A DNA stretch of 38,237 nucleotides from Candidatus Cloacimonadaceae bacterium (GTDB taxonomy: Bacteria; Cloacimonadota; Cloacimonadia; Cloacimonadales; Cloacimonadaceae). The notes under the pieces are model-generated. The model ran no database searches. It was not told where the DNA came from and saw nothing but the letters and a program-made list of their open reading frames with translations. The DNA lies in the NCBI GenBank assembly GCA_030693415.1, contig JAUYAR010000140.1:1-38237 (forward strand), read 5' to 3'. Numbering within the stretch: position 1 is the stretch's first letter; each line of letters opens with the position of its first letter. Made by a program: the position numbers and the translations under genes. Below, piece after piece: positions 1 through 29,538 of the stretch.

Positions 1-48
1 ACTCATAAATACTATGTAACTATATATTAGATAATACTCTAGCAATAC

Positions 49-272: not shown

Positions 273-427
273 CATTTTGTTTGAATTGAGCATCTTAACC
301 AACTAGTCGTGTATATTCAATAGACAACACAGGTTGTGACCCACGCTTTTTCTGCATTAGATCAGTTTGCCACAAATCGTGTTTTAAATTCGATTACAAA
401 AATATGGTGGAGTAGCTAAGTTCCTTA

Positions 428-2023: not shown

Positions 2024-5000
2024 TCATCTTGCAGGTGGGGTTTTCCAACTCATTCTATGTGGAGAAATCACAGGAGGTGGAGCATTCCACCGATTAAGGA
2101 AATCTCCGATATCATCAATTTCAAGAAAAGCAACCGATGCCTGTGGTTGACCATGTAGGTGAAATATCTCTTTGTTGTAATCTTCTCTAAATGGGGCATA
2201 TGCGCTACTCCCACCATAGCTGCCATTGTTTGCAACAATTACCATTTGATACATGTGATAGTGTAGAGCTAGTGCCATTTGGTCATAAGTCTTTACGTCT
2301 TGATTGAAAGAGGGAATTATATACACATCAGATTCCTCTCTTAGATCTGCTGCGAGTCGAATATCAGTTGCATCGTAGCAAATTGACGCAGTTAGTTTCA
2401 ATGGTTCTTCCCCTTCTTTCCACAAATAATGCACTATCCATTGACACGGTCTGAAAGGTCTGATATGAGTTTGAGTGCGATTGAACCTAATAATTTCATG
2501 AGGTGATAAGTTACCCTTACCTTGTCGTCTAATAACAACCTGAAGTCCTCCCTGTGGTGTCTGAGTTGGAATTATCCATAACGCAGAATTTACAAGTGGT
2601 TGATTGGGCTCTGTTTCAGTATAATTCATCCCAGCTAATATCACGGTTTTGCGGTCTCGTGCAAACGGAACAAGACTTTGAAATATATCCTGGGGATGAA
2701 TTGATAACTCTGGGAAAATCAGTAAGTCTAAACGTGAGCTACGACTGCGATGTGTCTCTCTCAAGTCTAATAATTTTTTCACAGCAGCAAGAGAAGCGAC
2801 TAAATGATTTCTATGACAACGGCGAACCATAGAATCAGAAAATGTTAAATCAATATTGTTAAAACAATCGCTATTCGGAATTACCTTTTGCACAATACAA
2901 GCTCGTAATGGCCGAGTTCCATCTTGTAAACTTCTGAAAGGTGGAGCGCTAACCGGCATCATAAGAACCGATGACTGATGGCCAAGCTTATCTTTAAGGT
3001 TTTTGAACCTTAAATCAATCTGATGTAGTGTTTCGGAGATACCTTTATTTATCCAAACATCAAATGAACTTTCATTACAACCAGGCCATTGTAATAGAGA
3101 GAAGAGTAATTTCTCTGTCCAATCAGATATCGGAAGCCAATCGGCTCCGAAAGCTGAAAAACCACTATATAACCCATGATCTCGTTGATACCAATGGCTC
3201 TCTGGGATACGATAGATAGGAAGATTTTCCTTCCAAGACAATCTCTTAACACTTCTTGAATAGTCATATTGTCTTGTTAGCAAAAAGCGGATAAGGTATG
3301 CAAGATTAAATCGCCATGAATCTTCAACTGTACACCAAAGGGGTGGTGTGTACATTGAATTGATGTCATGTGTTAAGTTTAAATCAACATCTATCTTTTC
3401 AAAGTACTCCGTATTGTCATTATTGAAAGCTATGTTGACTGCACCAGGTGAGATCACGTATTTTCTATTTGTCTCAAAGCTCATATACAAATTTAGAAAT
3501 AGAATGGAGAACTTTAGAATCGATAACTCATTAATGCACTTTATAGATTCAGAGTTATCTGAAACAAAGTTCATTAAGTTTGCATAACCTGGGGTGACAC
3601 TAACTTTATCATTTCGCAGCAAATCAGATGATCTTTTATTAAGAGTTAAATTTGCCCCGGGTTGTGATAGCAATTCTAATGCGAAAGAAGGATCTCTTTC
3701 GAGGATATGTTCAAATCTGTTCGTTGTAAGAAGTGGTGTAATTAACTCTCTGGCATCACCTTCATTAAGGTGTGATCTTCTGGCAAGTATTGCATACATT
3801 GCAAAATCACGATCAGACTTTCCAATGCTGTTCCCTTGAAGCAATAGAACCATTCTTTTATAGTGCTTTGTTTCTTTGGTTTTCCCTTCTCTACTTATGG
3901 GAACATCGTTTGGGGAAAACGCAAGTAAAAATAGAAGAATCTGTTGCTTTAAATACCATGGAATTGATTGGGTTGGTAAATTTAAAATACGAATTCCTTC
4001 TGTTTTTAGTGCTTCTCGATATTTTGATATGTCAATATTTTCAGGAAATGACTCTTGATTCTCAATAAATCCAGTTTCAGAAGCACCAGCTCTGAATATT
4101 TCTGATAGGCAATACCAAGCAACTCTACGTTTGCTCTTACGTCCACCACCTTTGAGTGTGTATTGACGAAGAAGATGGAGTACAGTATTCAAAATGGCCA
4201 CATCGGGACAAATATCTAGCCCCACTCTTAATAATCTAACATTTGAAGGGTCTTCAATCCAATTTTCTATCAAACCTAATGCGAATATTTTCGCTTCTTC
4301 ATCTAATTCCTGTCTTGTAAACCTAACAACGCTATCTTGATCATTAAGTTGTTCTTCACAGAAACCGCATTGTTCCACCTTATCAAAAAGCAAAAGTCGT
4401 AGTGAACGATAAGTGCTTCTATAACGATGAGCAGAAAAACGGGCAACAGTATCATCGTGCACATCTGGTACTGGTGCAAACTGAAAAGATTGATTATCTA
4501 GACGCCCATCGGAAAATCGAGATTGAGAACGAAGCAGTCCTTGTATAGCAGATAGAACCTCTAATCCCCCCTTTGAATCAAATCCTCCAGAAATCCCATG
4601 TTGAATTTGCTGCATTCGCTTACTTTGTCTTACTAATGGACGTTTGTCTCCGAAAACATCTATAACTTTAGTTTTGTCAGAAGATACCTTCAATCCTGAA
4701 GCATGTATGTTTAAACCATCCTCCAGCCAAGAAACGATATCAGCTTTAATACTATCTAGACTGGGGGTTTCTTCAACGGATAACACAATTCTGAGATCGT
4801 CAACATACCGGCATACATCTAAAACCTTTATGTCCGGTTTGATAAGAGTATTGAAAGATGCTCTAAGAAATTCATCAAAATCTTTGAGTATAACATTTGA
4901 TAAAAAACCGCTTGCAACAAGACCCTGAGGTAAGGCTATGTTTATAAATCCTTCTAATTCTGAGCATTTAATGTAATCCTCTACACATTGAATGTTTGAC

Positions 5001-5734
5001 TTCTCTTTATTCCATTCCCAGTTAAACACTCGCCTTATTAATGCTATGAATTGAGGATCAGCTTCGGCACCTAACAATCCGATTATTTTATTGTGAAGCA
5101 ATTCTGGACTCACTCGATCATAGAATTTTGAAAGATCTGATTGAACGATGTAGATTCTTCTATCCCCTTGATGCTCACTTGCGACAACATCAGATCTTTC
5201 AATGAATTTATTATAATCCTGGTAATAGGAACGGTAAAGCTTTGTAGAACCCCAATGATGAAGTAATTCGCCATTATCTCCAGTGCTACAATACAAGCGG
5301 TTTCCATAAGAAATTGTCTGCTTTCTTTCTTCAGACTTATCTAATGAGACTATTGGGCTTCCTTGTAATTGTTCCATTTGATCAGCCAAGCATAACATAA
5401 TGGCAGTTGCCAGAACTTGATCTTCGATGCAAACATGCGCTAAAGGCCTTAGTTTTGTTGAGATGTTACTTCTAGGCACCCACTTGTTATGCTCATTAAT
5501 ATGCCAACACTGGCTTTTGGGTGCAGGCACAATTTTTAGGGGTTCATTCCTCCAAGTAGGAATTCTATCAGATAACTGATTAATAAAATTAGGTAAGTCA
5601 ACCGATGCCAGATCAAGTTCCAATGAATCAGCATACCAATTGTGGTAGCGAATATATGAAGCTGTTTTCTTCCAGGCTTGAATGAGAAACTCAGGTCGTT
5701 TAAGGTAACTAATACTTGGGATTGGATGTTGCAC
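2024..5734 (-). CDS. Defence-associated reverse transcriptase fused to a nitrilase domain (DRT1/UG1-like)
   Basis: This 1236-residue fusion has an N-terminal reverse transcriptase. Motif A is SDLSKFYDRVS with catalytic D200, motif B is ALPQGLVASG at about 268-277, and motif C is YVDD at 310-313. A helical region of unknown role spans roughly 400-920. The C-terminus is a carbon-nitrogen hydrolase domain (about 940-1215) with all three catalytic positions: E1009 in FPE, K1073 in GKGNLSPHE and C1119 in SICYDATD. RT-nitrilase fusions of this size are known as class 1 UG reverse transcriptases, including DRT1, which act in phage defence. The nitrilase substrate is unknown. The start is GTG at 5732-5734, four bases after GGAGG. 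It lies 69 bp downstream of the 545-aa gene, in the same orientation as BREX. The exact UG subgroup cannot be set from the sequence alone. Confidence 0.88.
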   Translation of the reverse strand: MQHPIPSISYLKRPEFLIQAWKKTASYIRYHNWYADSLELDLASVDLPNFINQLSDRIPTWRNEPLKIVPAPKSQCWHINEHNKWVPRSNISTKLRPLAHVCIEDQVLATAIMLCLADQMEQLQGSPIVSLDKSEERKQTISYGNRLYCSTGDNGELLHHWGSTKLYRSYYQDYNKFIERSDVVASEHQGDRRIYIVQSDLSKFYDRVSPELLHNKIIGLLGAEADPQFIALIRRVFNWEWNKEKSNIQCVEDYIKCSELEGFINIALPQGLVASGFLSNVILKDFDEFLRASFNTLIKPDIKVLDVCRYVDDLRIVLSVEETPSLDSIKADIVSWLEDGLNIHASGLKVSSDKTKVIDVFGDKRPLVRQSKRMQQIQHGISGGFDSKGGLEVLSAIQGLLRSQSRFSDGRLDNQSFQFAPVPDVHDDTVARFSAHRYRSTYRSLRLLLFDKVEQCGFCEEQLNDQDSVVRFTRQELDEEAKIFALGLIENWIEDPSNVRLLRVGLDICPDVAILNTVLHLLRQYTLKGGGRKSKRRVAWYCLSEIFRAGASETGFIENQESFPENIDISKYREALKTEGIRILNLPTQSIPWYLKQQILLFLLAFSPNDVPISREGKTKETKHYKRMVLLLQGNSIGKSDRDFAMYAILARRSHLNEGDARELITPLLTTNRFEHILERDPSFALELLSQPGANLTLNKRSSDLLRNDKVSVTPGYANLMNFVSDNSESIKCINELSILKFSILFLNLYMSFETNRKYVISPGAVNIAFNNDNTEYFEKIDVDLNLTHDINSMYTPPLWCTVEDSWRFNLAYLIRFLLTRQYDYSRSVKRLSWKENLPIYRIPESHWYQRDHGLYSGFSAFGADWLPISDWTEKLLFSLLQWPGCNESSFDVWINKGISETLHQIDLRFKNLKDKLGHQSSVLMMPVSAPPFRSLQDGTRPLRACIVQKVIPNSDCFNNIDLTFSDSMVRRCHRNHLVASLAAVKKLLDLRETHRSRSSRLDLLIFPELSIHPQDIFQSLVPFARDRKTVILAGMNYTETEPNQPLVNSALWIIPTQTPQGGLQVVIRRQGKGNLSPHEIIRFNRTQTHIRPFRPCQWIVHYLWKEGEEPLKLTASICYDATDIRLAADLREESDVYIIPSFNQDVKTYDQMALALHYHMYQMVIVANNGSYGGSSAYAPFREDYNKEIFHLHGQPQASVAFLEIDDIGDFLNRWNAPPPVISPHRMSWKTPPAR

Positions 5735-5803
5735 ATAACCTCCAAAAATGCAATAAGATTTCTTTGCCCAAATGGAAATGTTTTAATCGTGAATTCGAGT
5801 AGT

Positions 5804-7441
5804 TCACTTTTTAATTGTTTCCCATCTTTCATAGGGCCAGACAGCTGTCTTATATTCTGAGAGCTTTGAATGAATATGTTCTGCAACTGTGCTATAGGTG
5901 GATTCAAACAATTTGCACAGATACAAGTTAATGAAGTACTTGGGTAATGTGATATAATTCATGTTGAATTCATATTCTGGATTCCATATATACTCTTCTT
6001 CTTCTGCAACAGCAATATATGGATATAGAACTGTATCAGTGATAGTACTTACAATATCTTTCCATCTTTCCAAATCTTTGTCTTCCAACCCAGTAATTCG
6101 AACAATTGATAAAAGGACAAGCAAGAAAAACTCAACAAATTCCGCAGCAACTCTTGATGCATCATAACCACAATAAAAATACTGCTTGTAATCAAAACAT
6201 AGACCTTGAAGTTTTTTTCTTGAAATCGAGTCATCTTTAAGCAATAGATAGCATAATACGGTTAACAAGTTCTGATATACTGAATCCAAAGTAAAGAAAT
6301 TGAATACAGTTGTGCTGTTTTTATTGATAATCAATTTCTGTATTAGGATTTCTGGTTTACTAATTGCATCAAAGGTACTATTGCAAAAGATTGACCTTAT
6401 GGGCAGTGGTATTAGATTCAAATCACATTTATCTCCATCAACTTTAGTAATCTCTAATACAAGGCTTGAGATAGTAATGTAATCTTCTGGGAATTCTAAT
6501 CCAGTAAGCCATTTTGATATGTTATCACTTGTGAGATGGTTGGCAAATGCATTGATGAAATCTAAGTATATGGGACTAAGATTTGAATGAGGATTGTTAC
6601 TCTGTGGCTTTGTTTTCTCAAGGATTATGCGATTAATAAGCTTCTTGCCACCATGGTTCCAATGAGTTAACAATAATGAATCAGCAACCTCAAAGTTAAA
6701 CCATTCTAATGCTTCAGGATGATATAGATTCTCAATTACATAGGCTATAATGAAAGCGATTTCTTTTTCGGATAAAGTATCCAATTCCTTTATGTCATCC
6801 TTATTTAAATGTATTTCCAAGCCATAGAAGTCAATTAGTATTGCAAGGATAACTGGAGGGATTTTGGGTACCCATCTAAAATCTAGTTTCATTTTCTGTG
6901 AAACAAGCATAATAATAGAGTTATATGATAATGCATGAGAGTCTAAATATGCTGTACTTCGAAACAACCGGCTCCATTCATCAACAGTTTTTGGGTTCTT
7001 ATCAATATTTGTATTTTGCTTATAGAGTACTTCTGAAAGAGAATTGATTAGAATAAGGAAAATGCTATTGCTTCTATCATTTCCAATTCTATCAACAAAC
7101 ATATTTACCATTTCGCTCTTATAATCACCTCTGTAACTACTCCTTAGGATTAATATGAATATGTTTCCAAGAGCAATATGGTTATCTATGAAATTATCAG
7201 TTAAGGCTAACAATATGTCAGAGTAATTTTTTAACACTAGTTCTGACTCATCATTTTCGTCTTCTAAACATATATACCCCAGATTGTAATCGAAAGGATA
7301 TCTGTAGGTCACCTTATCATGTATAGAAAACGAAATGTTGTTACTAATTGGCTTTTGAGATGCTAACTCAATTATGATATCCCATTTTAGCATTGTATTG
7401 TTAGCCAGATATTCGGATAGTACTCTATAAAGATTATCCAT
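5804..7441 (-). CDS. Unrecognised 545-aa, mostly helical protein of the RT cassette
   Basis: No catalytic motif or named domain was recognised. The protein is rich in Leu, Ile and Asn, predicted largely helical and without a signal peptide. Short hydrophobic stretches (for example FFLLVLLSIVRI) look like buried helices rather than clear transmembrane spans. It could be a scaffold or sensor subunit, but that is speculation. The ATG at 7439-7441 overlaps the end of the preceding gene by 8 bases, and GAGG lies seven bases upstream inside that gene. Translation is therefore probably coupled to the 208-aa gene. The RT-nitrilase gene follows 69 bp later. The conserved-looking tight order argues for joint function with the RT, though this rests on one locus. 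Confidence 0.75.
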   Translation of the reverse strand: MDNLYRVLSEYLANNTMLKWDIIIELASQKPISNNISFSIHDKVTYRYPFDYNLGYICLEDENDESELVLKNYSDILLALTDNFIDNHIALGNIFILILRSSYRGDYKSEMVNMFVDRIGNDRSNSIFLILINSLSEVLYKQNTNIDKNPKTVDEWSRLFRSTAYLDSHALSYNSIIMLVSQKMKLDFRWVPKIPPVILAILIDFYGLEIHLNKDDIKELDTLSEKEIAFIIAYVIENLYHPEALEWFNFEVADSLLLTHWNHGGKKLINRIILEKTKPQSNNPHSNLSPIYLDFINAFANHLTSDNISKWLTGLEFPEDYITISSLVLEITKVDGDKCDLNLIPLPIRSIFCNSTFDAISKPEILIQKLIINKNSTTVFNFFTLDSVYQNLLTVLCYLLLKDDSISRKKLQGLCFDYKQYFYCGYDASRVAAEFVEFFLLVLLSIVRITGLEDKDLERWKDIVSTITDTVLYPYIAVAEEEEYIWNPEYEFNMNYITLPKYFINLYLCKLFESTYSTVAEHIHSKLSEYKTAVWPYERWETIKK

Positions 7442-8060
7442 TCAAAACCTCATTAATGCTTTTTGCCCCACTTAACAGATTTATGTATTTGGAACAAATC
7501 ATTGCACATTGCAATTCATCATTTACAGGTACTATATCTACTTCTTTTATATTTCCGATACTATTCGTTACCACTATAGGTTTCAGCAGTGATGAAGATC
7601 CATCACTTGTATCTCGTGAAAAATAATATCTATTATGAAATTCATCATTTGAGGCAACGAAATCTACAAAATTTGGATACAACTTTTTGGGAGGCATAAT
7701 TCCATTCAAATATATCGGATACCTAGTGTATAAATCTTCCAGTTTAGTTAGAACACTGCTATTGTCTTTTATAATCTGAGTTTTTGCACGTTTCGGATAT
7801 CCGCATATCGTAAACTTTACAGTAAAGTCAGATTCAAATAGATATCTTCCTATCGCATTAATAAATGCCCTTTGATCCTCGAAAACCATACTTAGCGCAT
7901 TAGTAGCATCATGCTCTTGAATTGGTCCGATAAAATAAGGATCAAAAATAATTATATCAGGGCCAAGGAAATTGAATAAATCGTAGAAAATATCACTCAA
8001 TGCCATGTATGCATCATTATCAGAGAAATAGTTGCTTTTATACCATGTAATAGGTTTCAT
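7434..8060 (-). CDS. Unrecognised 208-aa protein, possibly PLD-like fold
   Basis: The N-terminal half contains a hydrophobic strand followed by acidic and aromatic residues (IIIFDPYFIG, about residues 36-45). The C-terminal half contains EFHNRYYFSRD. A DPYF strand followed later by F-H-[DN]-R-Y-x-[FIV] is reminiscent of compact phospholipase-D-like modules found in defence proteins. No full HxK motif is present, so this is only a suggestion and catalysis should not be assumed. The start lies 5 bp after the stop of the 291-aa gene, with a weak AAGG upstream. The 3' end overlaps the 545-aa gene by 8 bp. These couplings put it in the middle of a three-gene unit. Confidence 0.72.
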   Translation of the reverse strand: MKPITWYKSNYFSDNDAYMALSDIFYDLFNFLGPDIIIFDPYFIGPIQEHDATNALSMVFEDQRAFINAIGRYLFESDFTVKFTICGYPKRAKTQIIKDNSSVLTKLEDLYTRYPIYLNGIMPPKKLYPNFVDFVASNDEFHNRYYFSRDTSDGSSSLLKPIVVTNSIGNIKEVDIVPVNDELQCAMICSKYINLLSGAKSINEVLNG

Positions 8061-8065
8061 ACAAT

Positions 8066-8941
8066 TTATACCTTATTTGTTCTATGAAATGAACGACCAT
8101 ATGCATCAATCATTGTGTTAGAAATGATATTCATATTTAAAACAACATCTTGTATAAGAGTAAAAGAAATACATCTCTCAAGTTTTTCATTGATATAATA
8201 ATAGAGGTTTCCACTTGCAATAAAGTCATTTAAGTCCGCTATGAATAAACCTGAGCTTGTGTTTATTGCACCTTCTCCCTTGTACTCATCTTCATCATTA
8301 GTGATCTTAATTGTATACTTTTTATTGTTGTCAAAACTCTCTTGCACAAATCCGATTATCTGTTTGCTTCCTTGTCCCTTTACTGAAGCAGTGTGTACTC
8401 CTCTAAAGGAAATGTCCTTTTGTCTTTGGAGATTTATAGCGATTTGATTAGATTGGATGTAAGTTAGATATTGTAGAGGAGTAAGAATTCCGATTGGTTT
8501 GATGAAATCCGTATCTTCACTAGCGTAACCACACAACAAATTCCAATTCTCTTCAATCCGCAACTCAATAGGAAAATAATCCGAAACATCACAAAAATAA
8601 GATACGGAAGACAAAATAAGATTCGAATCTTGCATTTCTTTTCGAGTTACATTGGGTACTTGAAAAGTAACATCGTTTCCATTAATATCAACTGGAGTTT
8701 TATTGATAATAGAATAGAAAATAGCTTCAGCTTCCTTATCATTGCAAAATGCTACATGTTGATTAATACTCAATTGTCCTGATAATCTATGTGCTTTACC
8801 TTTCCAGAACCAATATACGTCGTCATTCTTACAAAAATCATTAATGGGTTTTCTATATAGGAAAATAAGTCTCTCTTCATTGGAACCTATTAATTCTTGT
8901 GTTAACAGGAGTATTACATTCATATTGGGTTCAGTTTTCAT
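8066..8941 (-). CDS. Unrecognised 291-aa protein, first gene after brxL
   Basis: No recognised domain. The sequence looks globular, mixed alpha/beta and soluble, with no signal peptide, membrane span or cysteine cluster. The ATG at 8939-8941 is preceded by GAGG about ten bases upstream. The gene begins 72 bp after the brxL stop, and no terminator-like hairpin with a T-run lies between them. Read-through from the BREX operon is therefore possible. Only 5 bp separate it from the next gene. It is visibly more AT-rich than pglX, pglZ and brxL. That fits a cassette acquired separately and appended to BREX. Confidence 0.75.
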   Translation of the reverse strand: MKTEPNMNVILLLTQELIGSNEERLIFLYRKPINDFCKNDDVYWFWKGKAHRLSGQLSINQHVAFCNDKEAEAIFYSIINKTPVDINGNDVTFQVPNVTRKEMQDSNLILSSVSYFCDVSDYFPIELRIEENWNLLCGYASEDTDFIKPIGILTPLQYLTYIQSNQIAINLQRQKDISFRGVHTASVKGQGSKQIIGFVQESFDNNKKYTIKITNDEDEYKGEGAINTSSGLFIADLNDFIASGNLYYYINEKLERCISFTLIQDVVLNMNIISNTMIDAYGRSFHRTNKV

Positions 8942-9013
8942 GACACATAACCTCGATTTAGTTCAGTGGTGTATCACCAAGTTTGTTAGTATTAGAAGGT
9001 ATTACAGAACTCA

Positions 9014-11068: not shown

Positions 11069-11077
11069 CATAGCTCC

Positions 11078-13597: not shown

Positions 13598-13602
13598 AAG
13601 AC

Positions 13603-16600
13603 CTAAAACCTAATCCCTTTCAAAGCCCCATCAAACATCGCATAATTCACTTTCACCCCATCATCCAGATCAATCTCAATCCGTTTCTCAGCCATTGGAA
13701 GCAGTACTTCGCTCTCCCAATCCTCCAGCTCTGTCAGCATAGCCGTGTAACGCACAATTTCCTTATTGGAAAGGATTTTGTCCCGTTCTGATAGTTCCGG
13801 ACTGGTTACCAGATGTTGTAACTGGGCTATCTTCGCTTTTACCTTTTCGAGATATTCCCGCAGATAACCATTTAGGATGATGGAAAGCGTATCCGGCGTA
13901 TAGCGGTGCATATAGATCAGAGCATTAAAGCTGCCTTTGGGGCTACTAAAAAGCCAGTAAATGGGACGTTTCTTATAACGCTTCAAGTGGTCATTGTAAA
14001 AGTCTTTGATAAAATAGGCACGGATGTCATTATCAATCGCATCTTCAATGAAGCGGAGGTTATCATTGAAGTTTTCCTCACCAAATGTGACCTTTAGGAA
14101 TACCTTAAACCTATCTACTATATCATCCGTGAACCACTCACTATCCAGTATGGGGATTACATTGTCCTTGTCAGGTAGGAAGCGGGACGGGTGTATCTTA
14201 GCAAGATAAGCATCCAGACTTTCTCCTTGATTGGCAAGAATCAAACCCGGTTTGTCTATTGAATATCTGCCAAACATACAACCCACAGCATAGGAGATAA
14301 GTTCCTTCATGGTATCAGCCAACAAACGCTGTTCCAGAATATTGTTCAGGGGAAATCTGCTGCTTCCTTCTTCATTTCCCTCATGATTCTCTCGTGATTC
14401 CCTCGTAATTCCCGGGTCGGACGAGGGAATCGCCTGGGAATTACCTGGGTTGTATAAGGCGTCAGAGTATGGAGATACAGCGTCCGCATTATAGCGGTAG
14501 TAAGGATTACAGGTAAGAGTGATCTCTTTTAAGGGAACTTCAGGGCTTAGTTCATCTTGCAATCCGTATGCCTCGATGAAAATCAGGTTGTTCTCTTCCT
14601 CCATTGTCTGTATCCTTAGTGCAGCTACTATCCACTTATCTCTCTGCATAGCATAACATTCCCTAACAGCTAGCCTCTCACCCCTTAACCCTAACAATGG
14701 CAATTGCTGAAAATCCCATGATGTTTCGTAGGAGTCCCAGTCATCTTTGACAACTTGGACACACTTTTCTACAATACAGTCTACCCTTGCGTAGCTCCCA
14801 GTGTGCATGTAAGGTAGTTTTGACAAAGGACCTTCATGAAAGTCTAAAGTCGGTGACAAGACTAATAGAAGATCACAAATCAAAACTGAGTTGAGAAATC
14901 CACCAACACTGTTAAATTCCTCAATCTCTTTGGGAAAACAAACAGAGCCTTTCGTCTCAAACATGAATCCTTTGGGGGAGAAACGAAAGGAAGCTTTACT
15001 TGAGGATATTGTTGACCAAGACCAGCCTTCAAGAAAGTAGTAATTTGGATTTCTAATCACTGAGCGGAGTTTTCCATTATCATATGTAAAATTCCTTAAC
15101 TCAAAACCGTCATTTTCCCAGTTGACTAAGTAATCGTTATTCCCATACCATCTGCGGAAGGAACCGCCTTTATTGCATGGAAACCACTTCTTTCCTGACT
15201 CTCGAGCTTCTTGTCTGGAATTCATGCTGAATCCAATTCTATTCAGAGAAGGTTCAAACCATTGCCTTAAGAATCTATCGTTGTCTGCTGTAGCTAATCC
15301 CTGTCTTGGTGAAGCAATATCCCCAAGGGGTTTAGAACTTACAAAGATCTCTTTTACCTTGGCACTAAGCCAATAAGCAATTGGAACTCCTGGTATCTTG
15401 GCAAAATCTGAGGTTGCACAGTGATAGAGCCACTCACAATCGGGATTGGTGATAGCTACCAGACAAGCCTGTCTTTTTTCTTCCTCCGAGTGGCCAGCGA
15501 TTAAGCGAAAAAATGTGCCTTTATCATTCCCCGGCTTCTTGTTTTGCAGCACAAAGGTAGTGGTGGAGACCACCTCACCGCTAATGGAATCAAATGCACG
15601 GGGTCCAAGATGCGCCATAGTAATAAACTCATAGTTCTTTACCAGATGTATTCTCAATTTCTCGTATGAGGACAGGAACATCCAGCTTTGCATATTGATC
15701 ATGGCAATATAACCCATGTCTTTTGTCATACTAAGGCAACGCTCCATAAACATGGCAAAGAAATCGGAGCGGGAATTAGGGTAACAGGTCTTGAAGAAGG
15801 TTTGAATGCTCTCGCTAAAGCCGCTGGTTCCTAAATAAGGAGGATTGGTGACTACTACCTGATACTTGCTGATGAGATAATCAGCCTGCTCCAGGATTTC
15901 CAGCACCTTGTCGTGAATAGGTGTAATAAATATGTCTTCACCAAGATTCTTTTGGGATAGGGTGTCATAAGTGGACTGGATATCTTGTTCTGCGGGTACT
16001 ATGAGAGAGCCAAGGGTATCTGCAGTTTCAAATTGATATAGAGTCTTTTCGAGGTTAAGGGTGAAAATATCTCGCCCACAACGCTCCATATAGGTCTCGA
16101 CTTCATTTGCTTGTAGCTTTACGTTGTGCAGCACACAGATTTTGGGTGCAATATCTTTCCTGGTAAACCACAGCTTGTCTTTACTGCGGGCTTTCATGGT
16201 AAGTGCAAAGGCTGCCAGTTCTCCTGCCCTTTCGTCTATCTCTATACCATACAGGTTTTTGTTTATTATCAACCGTGGAATTTCAATGGGGTCATAGCCC
16301 ATTTCGCTATATATCTCATACAGTAAATCAAAGGCATAAGTGAGTATATGCCCACTCCCGCTACAGGGGTCGCAGAGTTTAATCTCTTCAGGGCTCTTTA
16401 CTATCAGAGTGTCTTTCTCTGATTCGGTTTCATCTTTGACATAGAATTCCATTTTAGCCATGAGAGGAGACATAGGATGGCTATTGAGCCACAGCCTTCC
16501 CAACGAATTCTGAACCATGTATTTCACTATCCAGTGGGGGGTAAAGAGCTGAGTAACAGGTGGAATATCCGAACTCTGAACTTTCTTACCTGTTCTCAGG

Positions 16601-17274
16601 TCTGCAAAGACCTCATCTTTCTTTTCAGAAATATAGTATTGGTACAGCCAGCCGATTACTTCCACATCTTCGCAGGTTGATTCATCCATAGCATCACGTA
16701 TCTGAGCCAGGATAGAGTGCTCACTGAAGAGGTCATCAGGTATCAAGAGTAGTGTCCAGTCTGAGACATTGGGAAAGAGGAAGGGCATTATCTGGCTATA
16801 ATAGTTACATACAGAGATCAGGATTAGCTTGTAAGCCTCGCTTTGAGGATCAGTATTATGGAAAGTACTGCCCTCAGTACCTGAAAGCAGAGCTTGTATT
16901 CTTGTCCATCTATCGCCGCTAATCAGGCTGGGGTCTACATGTCCCAATCTGGCTTCTGCCAATATCTCTGGCTGAGTATTTCCGGGCAGAGGTGAGACTA
17001 TGCCAACCGGAGTAAAGTGGTTCATATCCATGAAACGCATGGCAGTGAAACGATTGAACCAGAGATAAGCTACCCGCTCTGTAAGCTCTCTATTACCAAA
17101 CTTTTTTAGCTCTCTTTCAAAAGCCTGGTATTGAGATTTGGTTGAGCTATAGGTGCTGGCATAGCTATCAGGAGTAAGGATTTCATTAAGCTTGATGCCT
17201 ACTTGGTTTATCAGGTAACGTCGGGCTTCCTGTGCAAAACGTTTGAGCCTGGCATTGGTCTGTTTATCTATCAT
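13603..17274 (-). CDS. pglX: BREX adenine-specific DNA methyltransferase PglX
   Basis: PglX methylates a non-palindromic adenine motif on host DNA, marking self in BREX. The SAM-binding motif DPCSGSGH is at residues 302-309 and the catalytic N6-adenine motif NPPY at 477-480. The C-terminal half (about 600-1223) would carry target recognition, so the recognised site cannot be predicted. The length of 1223 residues is normal for type 1. The ATG at 17272-17274 shares ATGA with the stop of the upstream nuclease gene, showing translational coupling. Inside the coding sequence, 14378-14431 carries three degenerate 11-bp repeats and an 11-bp inverted repeat. They encode a low-complexity RESRENHEGNEE stretch near residue 960. 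Confidence 0.94.
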   Translation of the reverse strand: MIDKQTNARLKRFAQEARRYLINQVGIKLNEILTPDSYASTYSSTKSQYQAFERELKKFGNRELTERVAYLWFNRFTAMRFMDMNHFTPVGIVSPLPGNTQPEILAEARLGHVDPSLISGDRWTRIQALLSGTEGSTFHNTDPQSEAYKLILISVCNYYSQIMPFLFPNVSDWTLLLIPDDLFSEHSILAQIRDAMDESTCEDVEVIGWLYQYYISEKKDEVFADLRTGKKVQSSDIPPVTQLFTPHWIVKYMVQNSLGRLWLNSHPMSPLMAKMEFYVKDETESEKDTLIVKSPEEIKLCDPCSGSGHILTYAFDLLYEIYSEMGYDPIEIPRLIINKNLYGIEIDERAGELAAFALTMKARSKDKLWFTRKDIAPKICVLHNVKLQANEVETYMERCGRDIFTLNLEKTLYQFETADTLGSLIVPAEQDIQSTYDTLSQKNLGEDIFITPIHDKVLEILEQADYLISKYQVVVTNPPYLGTSGFSESIQTFFKTCYPNSRSDFFAMFMERCLSMTKDMGYIAMINMQSWMFLSSYEKLRIHLVKNYEFITMAHLGPRAFDSISGEVVSTTTFVLQNKKPGNDKGTFFRLIAGHSEEEKRQACLVAITNPDCEWLYHCATSDFAKIPGVPIAYWLSAKVKEIFVSSKPLGDIASPRQGLATADNDRFLRQWFEPSLNRIGFSMNSRQEARESGKKWFPCNKGGSFRRWYGNNDYLVNWENDGFELRNFTYDNGKLRSVIRNPNYYFLEGWSWSTISSSKASFRFSPKGFMFETKGSVCFPKEIEEFNSVGGFLNSVLICDLLLVLSPTLDFHEGPLSKLPYMHTGSYARVDCIVEKCVQVVKDDWDSYETSWDFQQLPLLGLRGERLAVRECYAMQRDKWIVAALRIQTMEEENNLIFIEAYGLQDELSPEVPLKEITLTCNPYYRYNADAVSPYSDALYNPGNSQAIPSSDPGITRESRENHEGNEEGSSRFPLNNILEQRLLADTMKELISYAVGCMFGRYSIDKPGLILANQGESLDAYLAKIHPSRFLPDKDNVIPILDSEWFTDDIVDRFKVFLKVTFGEENFNDNLRFIEDAIDNDIRAYFIKDFYNDHLKRYKKRPIYWLFSSPKGSFNALIYMHRYTPDTLSIILNGYLREYLEKVKAKIAQLQHLVTSPELSERDKILSNKEIVRYTAMLTELEDWESEVLLPMAEKRIEIDLDDGVKVNYAMFDGALKGIRF

Positions 17275-18422
17275 GGTAAATCCTGATGCAATTGAGTTTC
17301 AAGGAATCTTTGCATATCTTCCTTGCTGGGTAGCTCCAGCAGATATTTTGAAACAAAGAGTTGGTTATCCATGCCAGCCAGAGCATACTCCACGAGAGTG
17401 GAATCTTTATCTGTACACAGCAAAATGCCAATGGGATCGCTATCACCCGGATGCATTTCATTCTTTCGGTACCAGCTTACGTAGGTGTTTAGTTGACCGA
17501 TGTTCTCGTGATTAAACTCGGCAAGCTTTAGTTCCACCAGAATATGGCATTTGAGGATGCGGTGGTAAAATACCAGATCAATATAGTATTGGGTTTCGCC
17601 AATTAGGATTCGCTTTTGTCTGGCTTCAAAGCAGAAACCATGCCCCAGTTCCAGAAGGAATTCCTGTAGTTTCTCGATGAGTTGATCTTCCAGATGGGAT
17701 TCGCTCATTACCTCTTTGGCTTTGAGCCCCAGAAATTCAAAAACATAGGGGTCTCTAATGGTGCGGGAGGGATCAAAGACTTCCACAGTATTATTGGTTT
17801 GCTCGACGAGTTTCTGTTTGTTTGTGGAAAGCCCGGTTCGCTCGTAGTAGAGAGATTTTATCTGACGCCTAAGCTGTCTTACTGACCAATTACCTATTAT
17901 ACACTCGTGTATATAAAACACTCTCATTGTATCATTATCAATATCCAATAGCTCAGAAATATGAGAAAATGATAAAAGGCTAACTAACTGCCTTGCCTCA
18001 ATCTGCAATTGTGGAGACGGTGTCTCCACAATCCTCGATTCATTGCCTACATCATGTTTCGTGTCAAAATCTACAAGATCTATAAGTGCTTTCCCCAAAA
18101 GCTGTTGTAATTGTGGATTCACTGTCTCCACAATCTGAGGGAACACTCTATAGAATTTGGCATATCGATAAAGCTCTCGTTTGTCAGTTCGTGGAACATC
18201 AAGTAAGAGTAGCTCTTCTGCTAAGCGTTCAAACAGCTTATCTCCATATTCAGCCCGGTCAGCTCCTCTCAGTTCGTATTCGCTGATGTAATATCCGATT
18301 AACCAATTCCTGATAGTAAGAGTGATATTGACAGACTGAGTCGCCTGACGGTTCAACTCCTGATGAACATTTTGAATCTGAGCAAGTAAGTCAGGAAAGC
18401 TAAGCGAGTCCTTCGTTATCAT
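17271..18422 (-). CDS. DUF1016/YhcG-family PDDEXK nuclease
   Basis: The family combines an N-terminal DUF1016 helical domain (about 10-200 here) with a C-terminal PDDEXK nuclease fold (about 225-360). Visible active-site residues are D282 in YYIDLVF and E297-L-K299 in VELKL. Members are commonly found in type I restriction and BREX loci, where their role is not settled. The 383-residue length is typical. The gene sits between brxC (9 bp gap) and pglX (4-base ATGA overlap), so it is expressed with them. Two copies of a palindromic sequence around GTGGAGAC/GTCTCCAC lie inside the gene (18008-18032 and 18110-18134). They encode similar VETVNPQLQ and VETPSPQLQ segments. Confidence 0.9.
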   Translation of the reverse strand: MITKDSLSFPDLLAQIQNVHQELNRQATQSVNITLTIRNWLIGYYISEYELRGADRAEYGDKLFERLAEELLLLDVPRTDKRELYRYAKFYRVFPQIVETVNPQLQQLLGKALIDLVDFDTKHDVGNESRIVETPSPQLQIEARQLVSLLSFSHISELLDIDNDTMRVFYIHECIIGNWSVRQLRRQIKSLYYERTGLSTNKQKLVEQTNNTVEVFDPSRTIRDPYVFEFLGLKAKEVMSESHLEDQLIEKLQEFLLELGHGFCFEARQKRILIGETQYYIDLVFYHRILKCHILVELKLAEFNHENIGQLNTYVSWYRKNEMHPGDSDPIGILLCTDKDSTLVEYALAGMDNQLFVSKYLLELPSKEDMQRFLETQLHQDLP

Positions 18423-18431
18423 TATACATCC

Positions 18432-21400
18432 CTACAGTTTGATTTTATTGCCCTTGTCGAGTTCGCGGAGAAGTGCTGTTTCCCAAGCTTCGAGATAGCT
18501 TTTCAAATCAGCTCTATCATTGATAATTCCTTTAGTATATAGAGGTTTGATACTTCGGCTGCTGATTATCCTGGGTTCTGCTCCGGGGCTATCGGTCTTG
18601 GTTTTGGAGTTGTGCAGAGTGTTTAGAATCTGTAGATACTCGTAATCTTCAAATCTGCTTAGAGTCGTCTGGATAACGGCAATCAGCTTAGCATTCTTTA
18701 TGGCATCACTAACATGTATGAATTTGGCTTCAATATTTTGGATGATTGGGGGTTCGGGATCAATACTCTCAATATCTGGCTTAAGGTTTTCTTTTAGAGT
18801 GGAAACTTTCTTTAAGGTTGCCTGAATTTCAGCATTCAATTTGAGCTTTAGCTGATCACTTAGCAAATCAAATTGGGTTTTGAGAGTTTGAATCTTGCCA
18901 CCCCGATAAACATCTGGATCGCTAATCCCTTCAGTAAGTGCCTTAACTGCTTCCTCATCCAAATAGCTCAGATTGGGCTCATTAAATTGCAAGAAGCTGC
19001 GAATTTGTTTATAAATATCTGCTTGGGGACTGGAGAAGAATCTCAGGACAGGGTCAATCATGTCAGTTTTAAGCTGCGTCAATTGGGTTTCCTGAGTCAG
19101 CAATTCGTTGTAATACCACTTAAAAGGTTTGTTTACAGCTTCTCTGATTTGAGTGATGGCAGGAAGAAGTATCGCTGCAAACGAGAAGACATCTCTTTGA
19201 TGATAGTAGATATCTAACTTATCTGCCAAGGCTTTTAACCCATCTGATAGTTCTTTGCTGATGCTCTTCGGATCATTTGAGGTATTTGGTGTATCAAGCA
19301 GTTCACTGAAGAGTTTTTTAAGCTTGCGTTCCTGATCTAAACTGATTTCTGTTTGGGTTTGCAGAATTAGATTGGGATACTTATCTTTCGATTTTAGCGT
19401 TTTCACTAATTCGGCTTTTTCCAGTGGTCTGCTTTGGTAATATATTTCCACCTTATTCAGGCTGTAAAGTCTGGCGATAAGGCAGATCGTGGCAGACTCA
19501 CTCCAGCCATAAGGTCTTTTACCAAATTTCTCGATGAGATTGTTCAGCGTGAGACACCTTGAGCTGCTTTGCGCTAAGCTGATTTCACTAAACACCCCCA
19601 GTTCTGCTTCGGACATTGGTATCTTTACATCCAGAGTCTCCTGCTCGTTTAATATCTGGCTTTCGATATCCTGATCAGTAACCCCAAGTCCTTTGAGCAT
19701 TTTGAGATTGGGGTAGATTCTGGATATCAGCCCTTGGCAGCCTTCATAGATACGGGAAGTAGCATCACCGGGATTAATCTCCAATAAGTCTCCTGATGCT
19801 ATAAGCTTAGCTTGGGATACTAATTCCATAAAACGTGCTCTGATCTGATTAGCCCGGTTGTTGTTCTGAAGTTGTTTATCAATCACTATTTTACGGGCAG
19901 ATTCACTTGTGGTAGTACTGCTGTTTTGTTGGCAGTACTTCTCCGTTCTTTTATACATCCACAAATCTTCCCAAAAACGGTTATCCGGAGGCATTACAAT
20001 AAGCAACTCCGGTTTACCCATGGAGTTTGCCAGAATCTGTTTATCGTCATCATAATAGCTGTAGCTTGGAGTGATTAACTGAAGTGTTATTTCCTGCACT
20101 TTACCAAAGGTTTGATTATCGATTTTTCGGGTAAATGGGAAATCCTGTTTATTGGCTTCATAGCGGATTTTATTAGACTTAATCAAGCTATAAGACGTAA
20201 ACATCAGCTTGTCCAGCTCATCTAAAATGATACTATCTTCTACTTGAGTGCTTTTAATCTGTTGTTCAACGTCTTTTTCCTCATTAGTTAGGTAAGAATA
20301 CTGCTCGCCATTTCGCTCAATATATACTTGCTGTTCCAAGAGGTTTACAGCTTGGGCAATTCTCTTTTCCAATACCGGTACATCATCATCAAATCCTTCC
20401 ATCATAAGTATTCGCAGGTTACGTACGGTTGCCTTGAAATCTCTAACGTATTTAACAACGAATAACACTTTAAGCACCCTCACAGCAAATTCATCATTGA
20501 GGTTTCCCTCAGCAGTATGAATTGTATGAAGAAGATGCGGTTTTATCATGGATTGGAATCCTTCATACATGAGATCAAAACTGGCTATTGTCCCTACTTC
20601 TTTGCTTCCGATAGCATTTACTACATGCTGATATATAGACAATAGACTTCTTGTGCCTACAGAAGTGTACTTGCCAGGGAAGGCATCATTTTCAGATAAA
20701 GAAATGAAAGCAGTCTGAAGCAGAAATGCCTGATAAGGGATAAACGGATAAGAGCGAGTAAAATCCTCCGAATCGACAAAACCACGATAGGTTTTTGCTC
20801 CATCTGCAAGATGGAATAGAACCTTGAAGCTATCTTTATATTTGTGATAGATTTTAAGCAATGGATCGATGCAATCTTCCTTCTTTTCCAATAGCCTCTT
20901 TTGGAGAACTTCCTCCACATTCGCACCGCTAAGATTCATCTTAATTGGAAACCGGGCAGTTATTCTCCCATATTCAGTGCTCTGTGCCTGCTTTATGTGC
21001 CCCAACATAGTCTGTAAGTCGGATTGGGAAGTAACAATAATCCAGGCCCTGCCTTTGCACAGGGAATAAAAGGTCTCTGAAATGGTCTGCAGATTAAGCA
21101 TTAAATTGGTGTTGTTGGCAATGTACTGTCCTACTTCATCCACACAAAAGATTAAACGGAAATTATCGCCTTGTTTCTTGATATACTCATTCACATCGTT
21201 GCTAAATTCTTCTATGGATACAGTATAGTCCTTTTGGTATTTATCCAATAGTCCCAACACACTACTTACATCTACGTTGGCTATAGCTGCATAAGCTTTG
21301 GCTATATTCTGATTTTCCAAAGCTGCAACGGCTCTGCCTATCTTCCATTCCTTTCCTGAGATTTCATGATACTTATCTTTGAAGCCATCAAACAACCCTC

Positions 21401-21908
21401 GCATGTCGAGATCACGTTCAAACTTGGCGATGTATCCATGCTTACCATAGTACCCACAGGTTTCGTTAAAGACTTTTACGAACACACTGAGGATAGCATC
21501 AGATTGCTCTTTGGATTTGATGTCTGCTTTCAAATCGATATTAAAGAGTATGCTTTTGGCAGGAATGGAGGCTGTTTTCTTCAGATTTCCACATAAAAAG
21601 GGTTCATCCTTGCATTTATCTAAGAACATATAGAGGATTGAAATACCATCGTGTTTCCATCCCTCGAGGAGTAAGGATATCATCTTCAATAGATGTGATT
21701 TTCCCGAGCCAAAGAAACCGGATATCCACACTCCGGGCATGCTATTGTTATTTGTATAAGCATCCAGAAAGGATTCAAGCTGGGACTTTATTTCTTTTGT
21801 AACTACGTATTCATCAATTTCCTGAAGCAAGTTTCTGGCATCATCAGCTTGAATTACACCTTCAATTTTACGATCAATCGGTTTGGCAAACAAGTCTTTT
21901 ATCGACAT
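18432..21908 (-). CDS. brxC: BREX P-loop ATPase BrxC
   Basis: BrxC is the large P-loop NTPase of BREX and is required for defence and host methylation in characterised systems. With the preferred ATG at 21906-21908 (GGAGG four bases upstream) the product has 1158 residues. Walker A is GFFGSGKSH at 64-72, following FLDAYTNNNSMPGVWIS, and the Walker B-like segment is IFCVDEVG at 253-260. An in-frame start 27 bases further upstream is possible but would overlap brxB and lacks a ribosome-binding site. Length and motif order match BrxC. It sits between brxB and the DUF1016 nuclease on one transcript. Confidence 0.93.
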   Translation of the reverse strand: MSIKDLFAKPIDRKIEGVIQADDARNLLQEIDEYVVTKEIKSQLESFLDAYTNNNSMPGVWISGFFGSGKSHLLKMISLLLEGWKHDGISILYMFLDKCKDEPFLCGNLKKTASIPAKSILFNIDLKADIKSKEQSDAILSVFVKVFNETCGYYGKHGYIAKFERDLDMRGLFDGFKDKYHEISGKEWKIGRAVAALENQNIAKAYAAIANVDVSSVLGLLDKYQKDYTVSIEEFSNDVNEYIKKQGDNFRLIFCVDEVGQYIANNTNLMLNLQTISETFYSLCKGRAWIIVTSQSDLQTMLGHIKQAQSTEYGRITARFPIKMNLSGANVEEVLQKRLLEKKEDCIDPLLKIYHKYKDSFKVLFHLADGAKTYRGFVDSEDFTRSYPFIPYQAFLLQTAFISLSENDAFPGKYTSVGTRSLLSIYQHVVNAIGSKEVGTIASFDLMYEGFQSMIKPHLLHTIHTAEGNLNDEFAVRVLKVLFVVKYVRDFKATVRNLRILMMEGFDDDVPVLEKRIAQAVNLLEQQVYIERNGEQYSYLTNEEKDVEQQIKSTQVEDSIILDELDKLMFTSYSLIKSNKIRYEANKQDFPFTRKIDNQTFGKVQEITLQLITPSYSYYDDDKQILANSMGKPELLIVMPPDNRFWEDLWMYKRTEKYCQQNSSTTTSESARKIVIDKQLQNNNRANQIRARFMELVSQAKLIASGDLLEINPGDATSRIYEGCQGLISRIYPNLKMLKGLGVTDQDIESQILNEQETLDVKIPMSEAELGVFSEISLAQSSSRCLTLNNLIEKFGKRPYGWSESATICLIARLYSLNKVEIYYQSRPLEKAELVKTLKSKDKYPNLILQTQTEISLDQERKLKKLFSELLDTPNTSNDPKSISKELSDGLKALADKLDIYYHQRDVFSFAAILLPAITQIREAVNKPFKWYYNELLTQETQLTQLKTDMIDPVLRFFSSPQADIYKQIRSFLQFNEPNLSYLDEEAVKALTEGISDPDVYRGGKIQTLKTQFDLLSDQLKLKLNAEIQATLKKVSTLKENLKPDIESIDPEPPIIQNIEAKFIHVSDAIKNAKLIAVIQTTLSRFEDYEYLQILNTLHNSKTKTDSPGAEPRIISSRSIKPLYTKGIINDRADLKSYLEAWETALLRELDKGNKIKL

Positions 21909-21922
21909 TACCCCTCCAATGG

Positions 21923-22531
21923 TTATAATTGGCATCTGAAAATGTTAAAAGCTCTATAGTATCTATCATCTAATCTTCCAAATAGAGTCAGATTAGAACC
22001 CTTCTCATTATCCGTATCATAGTTACCCGGGAAAAAGAGCACTACAGGTTTCTCAGTATATAAGACCTGAAGATTGGTGAGGACATTATGGGTGCGAATG
22101 TATGGAAAAACCTCTCCCACTCCAGTGATAAAGATGATTTTGAAATCAGCTTGTTTGATCTTTTCATAGATTATTGGGCAAATGAACTCTTCCGCATCTG
22201 TAATAGAACAAAGTGTGTTAAGCCGTTCAGCCCTTGATAGGCTGGATTCTTTTTCTATGATGCTATCTTTTTCTCCAACGTTTTCTAAATGTTCAATGAC
22301 TAACCGGTACAGATTAATCTCAAAAACACTTATCCCTTTTAGCTCCAACTGATTCTTCAGTTGAGTAATTCTTTGGTACATTTCTAAGGTATCTTCTACC
22401 TCGAATGGACAGATGTAATATGGCAGTTCATTGGCTAATCCTGTCATATTTACGAATTTGGAACTGCTCATTAAGTCCAATAGATGGTCGAACCGAGATT
22501 TGCTGTCAGTACTTTTATTCTTTGATATCAT
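21923..22531 (-). CDS. brxB: BREX protein BrxB (DUF1788)
   Basis: This small protein of about 200 residues has the DUF1788 hallmark near the C-terminus, ITGVGEVFPYIRTHNVL, followed by KPVVLFFPGNY. The biochemical role of BrxB is undefined, but the gene is essential in BREX systems tested. The ATG at 22529-22531 begins 2 bp after the brxA stop. An alternative TTG start at 22537 would overlap it. brxC starts 14 bp after the stop. No anomalies are visible. Confidence 0.92.
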   Translation of the reverse strand: MISKNKSTDSKSRFDHLLDLMSSSKFVNMTGLANELPYYICPFEVEDTLEMYQRITQLKNQLELKGISVFEINLYRLVIEHLENVGEKDSIIEKESSLSRAERLNTLCSITDAEEFICPIIYEKIKQADFKIIFITGVGEVFPYIRTHNVLTNLQVLYTEKPVVLFFPGNYDTDNEKGSNLTLFGRLDDRYYRAFNIFRCQL

Positions 22532-22533
22532 AG

Positions 22534-23130
22534 TCAAAATCCAATTATTGAAGGATAGATAGATAGTGGAATAGAGGCATCTGCAGTGATGATTCGTTTA
22601 ACTTGGGGAGATATCATCAGTAATTTGAGGTGCTGATTAGAATCCACTATCCCGGCACTCTGCATCATTTTGAATAGATTGGTTTGAAGCTTCTTTCTGG
22701 AGATTACAGAGATACTATTTAGTTTTTCGACCAGTTCGGCTTTTCTGCTAAAGAAGATATTGAAATCAGCTATGGTTATGATGTAATCCCTGCGGTTGAT
22801 TTTATCACTAAACACCTCTAAGGCAAAATCCCTTATAAAATCGTATTTCTTGCAGAGAGCATACCAGAGCAATTGGCATTGTTCATCCCGGTTACCATTT
22901 GCAATAAGTTCAATTGCTGGTTCAGATAGAGTCTTTAACCTGGTACAAGTCTCAGAGTAAATACGCTTTTGAGCTGACACGGTTCTGATTTGCAGTAAAT
23001 TATCTGCCAGAACCATTTCCCGAACCATATCCCAGCTCTTGGTCTCAAGATACAGCTTGGATAGAAGGACAGAATCTCTATATAAGAGAGCTCCTGCAGT
23101 AAAGCCAAAGCTAAATCTTGTCTCAGGCAT
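22534..23130 (-). CDS. brxA: BREX protein BrxA (DUF1819)
   Basis: This is a 198-residue DUF1819 protein beginning MPETRFSFGFTAGALL, the conserved N-terminus of BrxA. BrxA homologues are small helical DNA-binding proteins of the BREX core. The ATG at 23128-23130 is preferred because an AGAGGA lies about seven bases upstream. A longer form from 23151 would overlap the regulator gene by 29 bp. With the preferred start the overlap with the upstream HTH gene is 8 bp, indicating coupling. It is the first core BREX gene of the operon. Confidence 0.92.
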   Translation of the reverse strand: MPETRFSFGFTAGALLYRDSVLLSKLYLETKSWDMVREMVLADNLLQIRTVSAQKRIYSETCTRLKTLSEPAIELIANGNRDEQCQLLWYALCKKYDFIRDFALEVFSDKINRRDYIITIADFNIFFSRKAELVEKLNSISVISRKKLQTNLFKMMQSAGIVDSNQHLKLLMISPQVKRIITADASIPLSIYPSIIGF

Positions 23131-23323
23131 TATTTGAATCCTCTGAACCATCCTTTATAGAATGGGCTTTTACCCATAGATCAATGTCCTCTTTTTTGAA
23201 TTTCCACAGTCTTCCAATCTTGTGAGCTGGAAGCTTCTTTTCACTGAGCCATTTATAGACAGTGTCCCTTGTCACTCCGAGATATTGACTTATTTCCTCA
23301 ACGGATAACCATCTGTCTTCCAT
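23123..23323 (-). CDS. Small excisionase-type HTH regulator at the head of the BREX operon
   Basis: This is a 66-residue single-domain helix-turn-helix protein of the MerR/excisionase type. It shows the typical order LSVEEISQYLGV, TRDTVYKWLSEKKLPAHKIG and LWKFKKEDIDLWV. Such proteins bind short DNA sites. As the first gene of the operon it probably regulates BREX expression. The ATG at 23321-23323 is chosen because AAGGAG lies six to seven bases upstream; starts further upstream have no such site. The palindrome CTGATACATATCAG (23360-23373), some 37 bp upstream, is a natural candidate for its binding site. It resembles but is not the larger WYL-type BrxR regulator. Confidence 0.8.
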   Translation of the reverse strand: MEDRWLSVEEISQYLGVTRDTVYKWLSEKKLPAHKIGRLWKFKKEDIDLWVKAHSIKDGSEDSNNA

Positions 23324-29505: not shown

Positions 29506-29538
29506 AACCCTGCTCAGCCTCAGTTTATCGAGAGGTAA

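Follow-up and report, generated by a model that had tools for sequence, protein, structure and literature searches.

Background

Tn7-like transposons carry and swap defence systems, BREX (bacteriophage exclusion) and defensive reverse transcriptases (RTs) included (PMC8649781), and Mu-like transposons with CRISPR-associated transposases exist (PMC11656645). The published DRT1, a UG1 RT-nitrilase (PDB 9yfd), functions as a stand-alone gene and has S402 as its DNA priming site (PMC13275509). The main text of PMC8649781 does not use the term 'Mu-like', and none of the open-access titles and abstracts listed dealt with BREX, Ssp or restriction-modification (R-M) systems being carried by Mu-like elements. 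Here we describe a 38,237-nucleotide stretch of the Candidatus Cloacimonadaceae contig JAUYAR010000140.1 (C140), the whole of which is called the window below. In it a type 1 BREX operon, three genes referred to as the trio and a DRT1 gene follow one another behind a MuA/MuB-type transposition module. We consider it most probable (about 0.85) that this row consists of independent defences carried as cargo of one Mu-like transposon.

The element resembles the defence-carrying Tn7-like transposons (PMC8649781) in bearing cargo and swapping defences, whereas its MuA/MuB-type head, its CI-like repressor and its 5-bp duplications set it apart from them. With the Mu-like elements of PMC11656645 it shares the carriage of cargo. 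Unlike those, it showed no CRISPR gene when its genes were scanned and holds BREX and DRT1, while its relatives hold Ssp, R-M and Hma.

Results and discussion

Twelve genes in one row

The initial annotation had described twelve genes on one strand, from a BREX regulator to an RT-nitrilase, with gaps of at most ~72 bp. The open reading frame (ORF) calls bear this out: a small helix-turn-helix (HTH) gene, BREX, U291/U208/U545 and DRT1 run on the minus strand from 23323 down to 2024. The widest gaps are 72 bp (8942-9013) and 69 bp (5735-5803), and several neighbours overlap. Gene identities were taken from PADLOC, Pfam and NCBIfam profile scans, and here too the earlier description of an RT-nitrilase with a complete BREX was correct: the RT-nitrilase is a DRT1 with its catalytic residues, and the type 1 BREX has all its core genes. 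The row is as follows.

23123-23323, minus strand: HTH_17/MAD1-like small regulator, ATG at 23323, heading the BREX operon (NF047737, 82.6 bits, cutoff 80)
22534-23151, minus strand: brxA (Pfam BrxA, 7.5e-47)
21923-22537, minus strand: brxB (Pfam BrxB, 9.5e-33)
18432-21935, minus strand: brxC (NF033441, 1010 bits)
17271-18422, minus strand: yhcG/DUF1016 PD-(D/E)XK nuclease gene (YhcG_C, 6.6e-56; PDC-S02)
13603-17274, minus strand: pglX, BREX-1 adenine methyltransferase (NF033452, BREX_1_MTaseX, 1363 bits, cutoff 500)
11078-13597, minus strand: pglZ (Pfam PglZ, 4.1e-60)
9014-11071, minus strand: brxL, with a PLD-like MIT_C C-terminus (PADLOC BrxL, 1100 bits; Pfam)
8066-8941, minus strand: U291, first trio gene (matches the N-terminal part of L305:10808-12394, E 2e-8)
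7434-8060, minus strand: U208, second trio gene (matches the C-terminal part of the same L305 fusion, E 2e-11)
5804-7441, minus strand: U545, third trio gene (24% identical to L305:8603-10279, E 2.7e-12)
2024-5734, minus strand: DRT1 RT-nitrilase, GTG start (PADLOC Drt1a, 1193 bits over residues 6-1235; PDB 9yfd, 1.2e-114)

The six core genes stand on one strand in the type 1 order brxA-brxB-brxC-pglX-pglZ-brxL, and PglX scores above the cutoff of the BREX-1 model. The operon differs from BREX type 1 in the yhcG nuclease gene nested between brxC and pglX, in the HTH_17/MAD1-like gene at its head and in its Mu-like transposon carrier. The nested yhcG gene, the steps in GC content given below and the Mu-like module directly ahead of the row were not part of the initial annotation.

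No minus-strand terminator-like site was found at either junction flanking the trio (8942-9013 and 5735-5803). A scan of positions 1-10000 gave 5 terminator-like and 32 promoter-like sites compared to 4.9 and 42.1 in shuffles, no better than chance, so that read-through cannot be proved from it. A weak minus-strand promoter-like site (9 of 12) was located at 9042-9013, just ahead of U291, and one scoring 10 of 12 (TTGACA-16-TATTGT, 23435-23408, minus strand) ahead of the HTH gene. An Rfam search found nothing.

The GC content per gene was 0.47 for MuA/MuB, 0.36-0.43 for BREX (brxL 0.429), 0.320-0.323 for the trio and 0.380 for DRT1, with steps at both junctions, brxL/trio and trio/DRT1. The HExxH-type gene that follows (428-1765) had 0.33 and the chromosomal dnaX 0.51. 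That the GC content differs block by block supports separate origins of the blocks.

Transposition module and ends of the element

Upstream of the row, the window holds the head of the transposon.

29252-29265, minus strand: left terminal sequence TATAAACTGACACC, element interior toward lower coordinates
28288-29055, plus strand: CI/LexA-like repressor gene (HTH and S24; Pfam Peptidase_S24, PHROG 4 transcriptional repressor), divergent from the transposase genes
27486-28058, minus strand: 190-aa transposition-module gene with a weak Cox-like match, conserved in related modules
24887-27571, minus strand: MuA-type DDE transposase (Mu-transpos_C, 1e-13; PHROG 310, transposase, 2.6e-72)
24167-24877, minus strand: MuB-type AAA+ ATPase (PHROG 296, DNA transposition protein, 2.2e-23; TniB, 2.3e-6)
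23656-24159, minus strand: winged-HTH gene, last of the transposition module, where shared homology stops and cargo starts

The MuA- and MuB-type genes lie side by side, and the element has defined ends with a 5-bp duplication, as befits a Mu-like transposon. Residues D354, D432 and E480 of the transposase were invariant in 15 aligned sequences, the DDE assignment being made by position. The MuB-type ATPase also passed the Pfam TniB cutoff (27.6 vs 22.4 bits), TniB being akin to both MuB and TnsC. None of the window genes submitted to Pfam had a TnsA- or TniQ-type match, and the element was not classed as Tn7-like.

At the left end, homology to five loci of other genomes stops at 29265-29269, beyond which the flanks are unrelated, and the 5-bp target duplication ATGGT (29266-29270) lies just outside. 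The right end emerged when two elements that share their cargo were compared. A 164-bp query made from it matched 23 of 121 genomes, and in the window's genome it gave one strong match, on contig C46, with its tip at 522 and flanked by ATGGT. C46 carries a TOTE-type primase-helicase and an insertion sequence (IS) of IS21 type that runs off the contig, both scanned with Pfam. A similar IS end forms the start of the window.

1-130 (approximate), strand not assigned: IS21-type insertion sequence end at the contig edge (49-109 match the IS21-type end on C46 at 82%)

With an IS21-type element at the edge of C46 and its counterpart at the edge of C140, the break between the two contigs apparently falls at this IS. 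When they are joined, the transposon measures ~34.3 kb plus the missing IS piece.

Arrays of AATTGAGAATT-type repeats flank the transposon externally on both sides, and such an array is also present at the far end of the window (29286-29510 and 38102-38237 of the window, 146-254 of C46). On another contig of the window's genome (G000:C98, ~15964-16122, L230) lies one more left end of this transposon family, diverged and apparently a remnant.

Related elements carry other defences

Across the phylum, 37 of 124 genomes have a MuA homologue. In the closest relatives, all in other genomes of the phylum, the module was much alike (MuA 77-91% identical) and different genes stood behind it. The element of G019 is complete on one contig, with a length of 31,758 bp and the duplication CATAT, and its cargo comprises SspB, SspC, SspD and a DndH/SspH-like protein. 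In G004, whose cargo is ZacC and a type III R-M system, a right end (C19) and a left end (C25) share ATCAC. The G013 element carries a type I R-M system (HsdM/S/R). Hma with a GajB-like helicase forms the cargo of a further pair, HmaA and the GajB-like gene being found in G037:C78 and HmaC in the matching G044 element. On G037:C32 a different BREX operon stops ~0.6 kb short of a right end of this type; no left end was seen there.

Homologues of the small HTH gene, 60-80% identical, were found in four other loci, where each precedes a defence operon: Ssp (G019), type I R-M (G013), the second BREX (G037:C32) and a BREX on G037:C84, for which membership in a Mu-like element was not established. 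The small HTH protein is a possible common regulator of exchangeable defences. The homologues lie at L181:13662-13865, L236:4709-4551, L272:892-1047 and L187:2741-2920.

Defence genes gather in islands, and the window's genome contains six further, more distant MuA-like matches. Both points would fit an ordinary chromosomal defence island piled up by chance beside a dead Mu-like prophage remnant, transposon and defences being unrelated. However, past the defence genes stands the right end, flanked by an identical 5-bp duplication, and in other elements, too, defence cargo stands between conserved ends. Furthermore, no phage head or tail gene was found among the window genes scanned; on C46 the scan covered the TOTE-like gene and the IS transposase gene. 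We regard such a chance pile-up as very unlikely.

Several points weigh against the reading of the row as cargo of one Mu-like transposon. The element is divided between contigs C140 and C46, which apparently part at the IS21-type element, and the link between them rests on the duplication (chance ~1/1000 for one pair), on the fit of the IS pieces and on C46 having the sole strong right-end match of this genome. Two of the five end-paired elements (G020 and G044) have no target duplication, and a second candidate left end in G004 (C14) does not match. In G020 no defence genes were recognisable, an ATPase and a peroxiredoxin-like protein being seen there from the starts of the translations only. 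Mobility, expression and phage defence are read from sequence, and the defensive role of the trio from its context.

Recurrence of BREX, trio and DRT1

The initial annotation had suggested that BREX, the trio and the RT-nitrilase form a composite system with shared regulation, and had counted the trio as part of an RT-nitrilase cassette. The neighbours of DRT1 were tabulated in 86 loci: 78 from a species-genome collection (the best 80 of 240 relatives, 78 of them distinct), 3 from viral contigs and 5 from plasmids. BREX was sought in them with 16 queries from several lineages, some loci having short flanks. ORFs in the locus scripts were called mechanically, and some short neighbours are spurious.

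Trio genes were found in 0 of the 78 genome loci. Profiles run on 14,675 ORFs from the collected loci, seven from the window's contig aside, agreed with this and gave no trio. The trio was consequently rejected as a DRT1 partner, and its place in an RT-nitrilase cassette could not be upheld, a divergent copy also occurring without BREX or DRT1 (L305, described below). BREX was present in 1/86 DRT1 loci (1/78 genome loci), a Syntrophus metagenome-assembled genome (L052). Thus brxL does recur beside DRT1, once, and the full BREX-trio-DRT1 set was seen in none of these 78 loci.

In L052, pglX-pglZ-brxL is followed by DRT1 after 126 bp, without a trio; its BrxL was identified by BLAST. This BREX is diverged from that of the window (BrxL 65%, PglZ 40% and PglX 48% identical) and also differs from it in the gene pair between pglX and pglZ (L052:3337-5276), which, going by sequence likeness, we take to be an AAA-ATPase gene and an RloB-like gene. 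A quick DRT1 tree placed the window and L052 in one five-member group (SH-aLRT, an approximate likelihood ratio test, 96), with the L052 DRT1 as sister to that of L087, a locus without a BREX match. The composites of the window and of Syntrophus differ in both BREX lineage and DRT1 branch.

Loci of brxL were also sampled irrespective of DRT1 (n=32), 8 of which were dropped for having <1.4 kb downstream. None of the other 24 (8 from this phylum, 16 from the phylum of L052) was followed by DRT1 or the trio. As the trio stood behind none of these 24 brxL genes, it was rejected on this sample as a BREX partner as well.

DRT1 was also met in operons with other modification genes. It lies inside type I R-M operons, in the order hsdM-hsdS-DRT1-...-hsdR, in L076 and L092, with a similar order in L083. 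L103 shows hsdS-DRT1-yhcG-hsdR and L043 drmMI-DRT1. In L043, L076, L083 and L103, DRT1 and the stop of the modification gene before it overlap by 4 nt (hsdS in the latter three). Across the loci, 28 upstream neighbours run in the same direction as DRT1; ten of these were submitted to PADLOC, which returned four HsdS, one type IIG, two DrmMI, two LmuB-like proteins (70 and 28 bits) and one without a match. The R-M/DRT1 operons of L076, L083, L092 and L103 span around 4,700-20,400 in their loci.

For a test of enrichment, 7 of the 78 loci were dropped for short flanks. DRT1 stood in methylating operons in 15/71 loci compared to 19/362 control genes (Fisher p 6e-5) when the queries included DRT1-locus proteins. 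With queries from outside DRT1 loci, the counts were 6/71 vs 12/369 (Fisher p 0.053), and four of those six (L076, L083, L092 and L103) are one clade of the tree. The enrichment is suggestive only. With DRT1 found last in or inside other DNA-methylating operons, an order of 'modification first, RT second' is plausible.

These data bear on whether BREX, trio and DRT1 might be a true composite, that is, one co-regulated and cooperating defence. What stands of that proposal is the contiguity of the row on one strand with gaps of no more than 72 bp, the lack of terminator-like sites at the junctions and the single recurrence of brxL beside DRT1 in Syntrophus, to which the 4-nt overlaps of DRT1 with modification genes may be added. 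What is not borne out is the association itself: the trio was found in none of the 78 DRT1 loci and occurs elsewhere without either partner, BREX was confined to 1/86 DRT1 loci (some with short flanks), and neither DRT1 nor trio followed any of the 24 brxL genes. The Syntrophus DRT1, moreover, is sister to one without a BREX match, and in the window the GC content steps at both joins. We therefore judge a cooperating composite unlikely, and return to independent defences stacked in one Mu-like transposon as the preferred explanation.

The DRT1 gene and its neighbours

The window DRT1 encodes a full-length single polypeptide, residues 6-1207 aligning to 13-1204 of 9yfd (1.2e-114). In an alignment of 81 DRT1 sequences the RT residues D312 and D313 were both kept in all 81, and the nitrilase triad E1009-K1073-C1119 in 81, 80 and 78, respectively. 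In the C-terminal tail, K1231 was shared by 74/81 and A1235 by 75/81. S382 was invariant (81/81) and falls in the same column as a serine of L038, whose stretch resembles, by eye and without gaps, that of 9yfd around S402. On this basis S382 is a candidate counterpart of the published priming serine S402, although the pairwise alignment with 9yfd places S382 two positions off S402.

Like the published DRT1 (PMC13275509), the window gene is thus a full-length single gene with RT DD, nitrilase E-K-C, a serine and the C-terminal K/A. Unlike it, the window gene follows BREX and the trio and has no drt1b-like neighbour. A paper on RT classes (PMC8934634), which bears on a side question and was not used, leaves BREX unmentioned in its accessible part.

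The Drt1a model matched 51 of the 124 genomes of the phylum. Among the matches listed, those outside the window gene were confined to the RT part, with scores of at most 49.5 bits, so that 51 genomes do not mean 51 DRT1s, and no other full-length DRT1 was found among the 124 genomes. A phage search with DRT1 gave no match. Viral contigs yielded three distant DRT1 loci only, and none with a single-sequence query.

Downstream of DRT1 the window holds one more gene before the IS end.

428-1765, minus strand: 445-aa gene with a HEYIH (HExxH-like) motif, 258 bp after DRT1

One plasmid homologue of it was found, in Hymenobacter, beside a UvrD-type helicase gene. In L041, L044, L045, L086 and L094, a protein of ~1255 aa (where complete) directly follows DRT1, within tens of bases or overlapping. 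It starts with MNYPL(K/R)HISIRVPWHD or nearly so and is a possible DRT1 partner in some lineages.

The trio as a module of its own

None of the libraries searched (Pfam, PADLOC, NCBIfam, PHROGs and the sequences of the PDB) contained a credible match for the trio. The DPYF and HNRY motifs of U208 suggested a PLD-like protein resembling the MIT_C domain of BrxL, a reading that no library confirmed and that was set aside. AlphaFold single-sequence models of U208 and U291 were unusable (pLDDT confidence scores of 33.5 and 30.4, respectively). No U545 match came from the remaining 123 genomes of the phylum, nor from any of 20 DRT1-holding genomes (of the 78) that were searched whole, an empty result that by itself shows little. 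Viral contigs held no relatives of the trio proteins. Plasmids gave no match for U545, U291, U208 or two L305 homologues, and phages none for U545, the only trio query used there.

A divergent trio was found at L305 (8603-12394), in a genome of the phylum of L069; neither BREX nor DRT1 lies within the 20 kb of sequence read there. It consists of a 558-aa U545 homologue, a 188-aa gene and a 528-aa protein in which U291 and U208 are fused. Its neighbours are a TIR-domain protein, identified by scan, and, going by sequence, a recombinase-like and a helicase-like gene. A second match of the U545 search (78 residues with five stops) was taken as noise.

The trio might be a split VPA1262-type system and hence a third self-contained defence. 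The fusion and the surroundings of the L305 trio are in keeping with this, and the L305 fusion and its 188-aa neighbour match NF040700 (VPA1262_N_dom) weakly, with E-values of 6.3e-5 and 0.0025. However, both scores (21.9 and 16.6 bits) are far under the cutoff of 80, the window trio proteins had no NCBIfam match up to E 1, and the structure models were of no help. We offer this identification tentatively, giving it slightly less than even odds. VPA1262 itself is located on a Vibrio parahaemolyticus genomic island (PMC1464126), a side question that was not used here. Whatever its family, the trio is its own module and, by its context, probably a third defence module.

Proposed organisation and implications

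Judging from its anatomy, the MuA/MuB-type module would move the element under the CI-like repressor, making 5-bp duplications, and the element may be mobile today. Behind the module would lie a swappable load made up of the HTH-headed type 1 BREX, the trio, DRT1, the HExxH-type gene, the IS21-type element and the TOTE-type primase-helicase. Each of these blocks would have been gained on its own, all of them ending up stacked in one orientation. As no terminator-like sites were found between the blocks, the BREX promoter may be shared by them, and the trio and DRT1 are possibly co-transcribed with BREX. Protection could then be layered. Going by the properties of its family, BREX would methylate host DNA and stop the replication of unmodified phage DNA, and DRT1, with a short protein-primed DNA adduct, would by analogy act through its nitrilase as an abortive backstop. 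We infer this order of action, and any cooperation, from such family properties.

On balance we lean towards the wider view that the phylum has a family of Mu-like, non-viral transposons acting as dedicated vehicles for interchangeable defences of the DNA-modification type and related ones (BREX, Ssp, type I/III R-M and Hma), several of them placed behind the same module under a homologous HTH gene, and that the member in the window has stacked an undescribed trio and DRT1 behind BREX as a second line.

The ends, duplications and exchangeable cargo of these elements would provide a physical reason for the travel of large modification-based defences between genomes of the phylum. The shared HTH gene makes common control of these defences a testable question, and the trio is a candidate for an undescribed defence module. 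With DRT1 placed repeatedly in methylating operons, 'restriction first, abortive infection second' is an open and testable idea.

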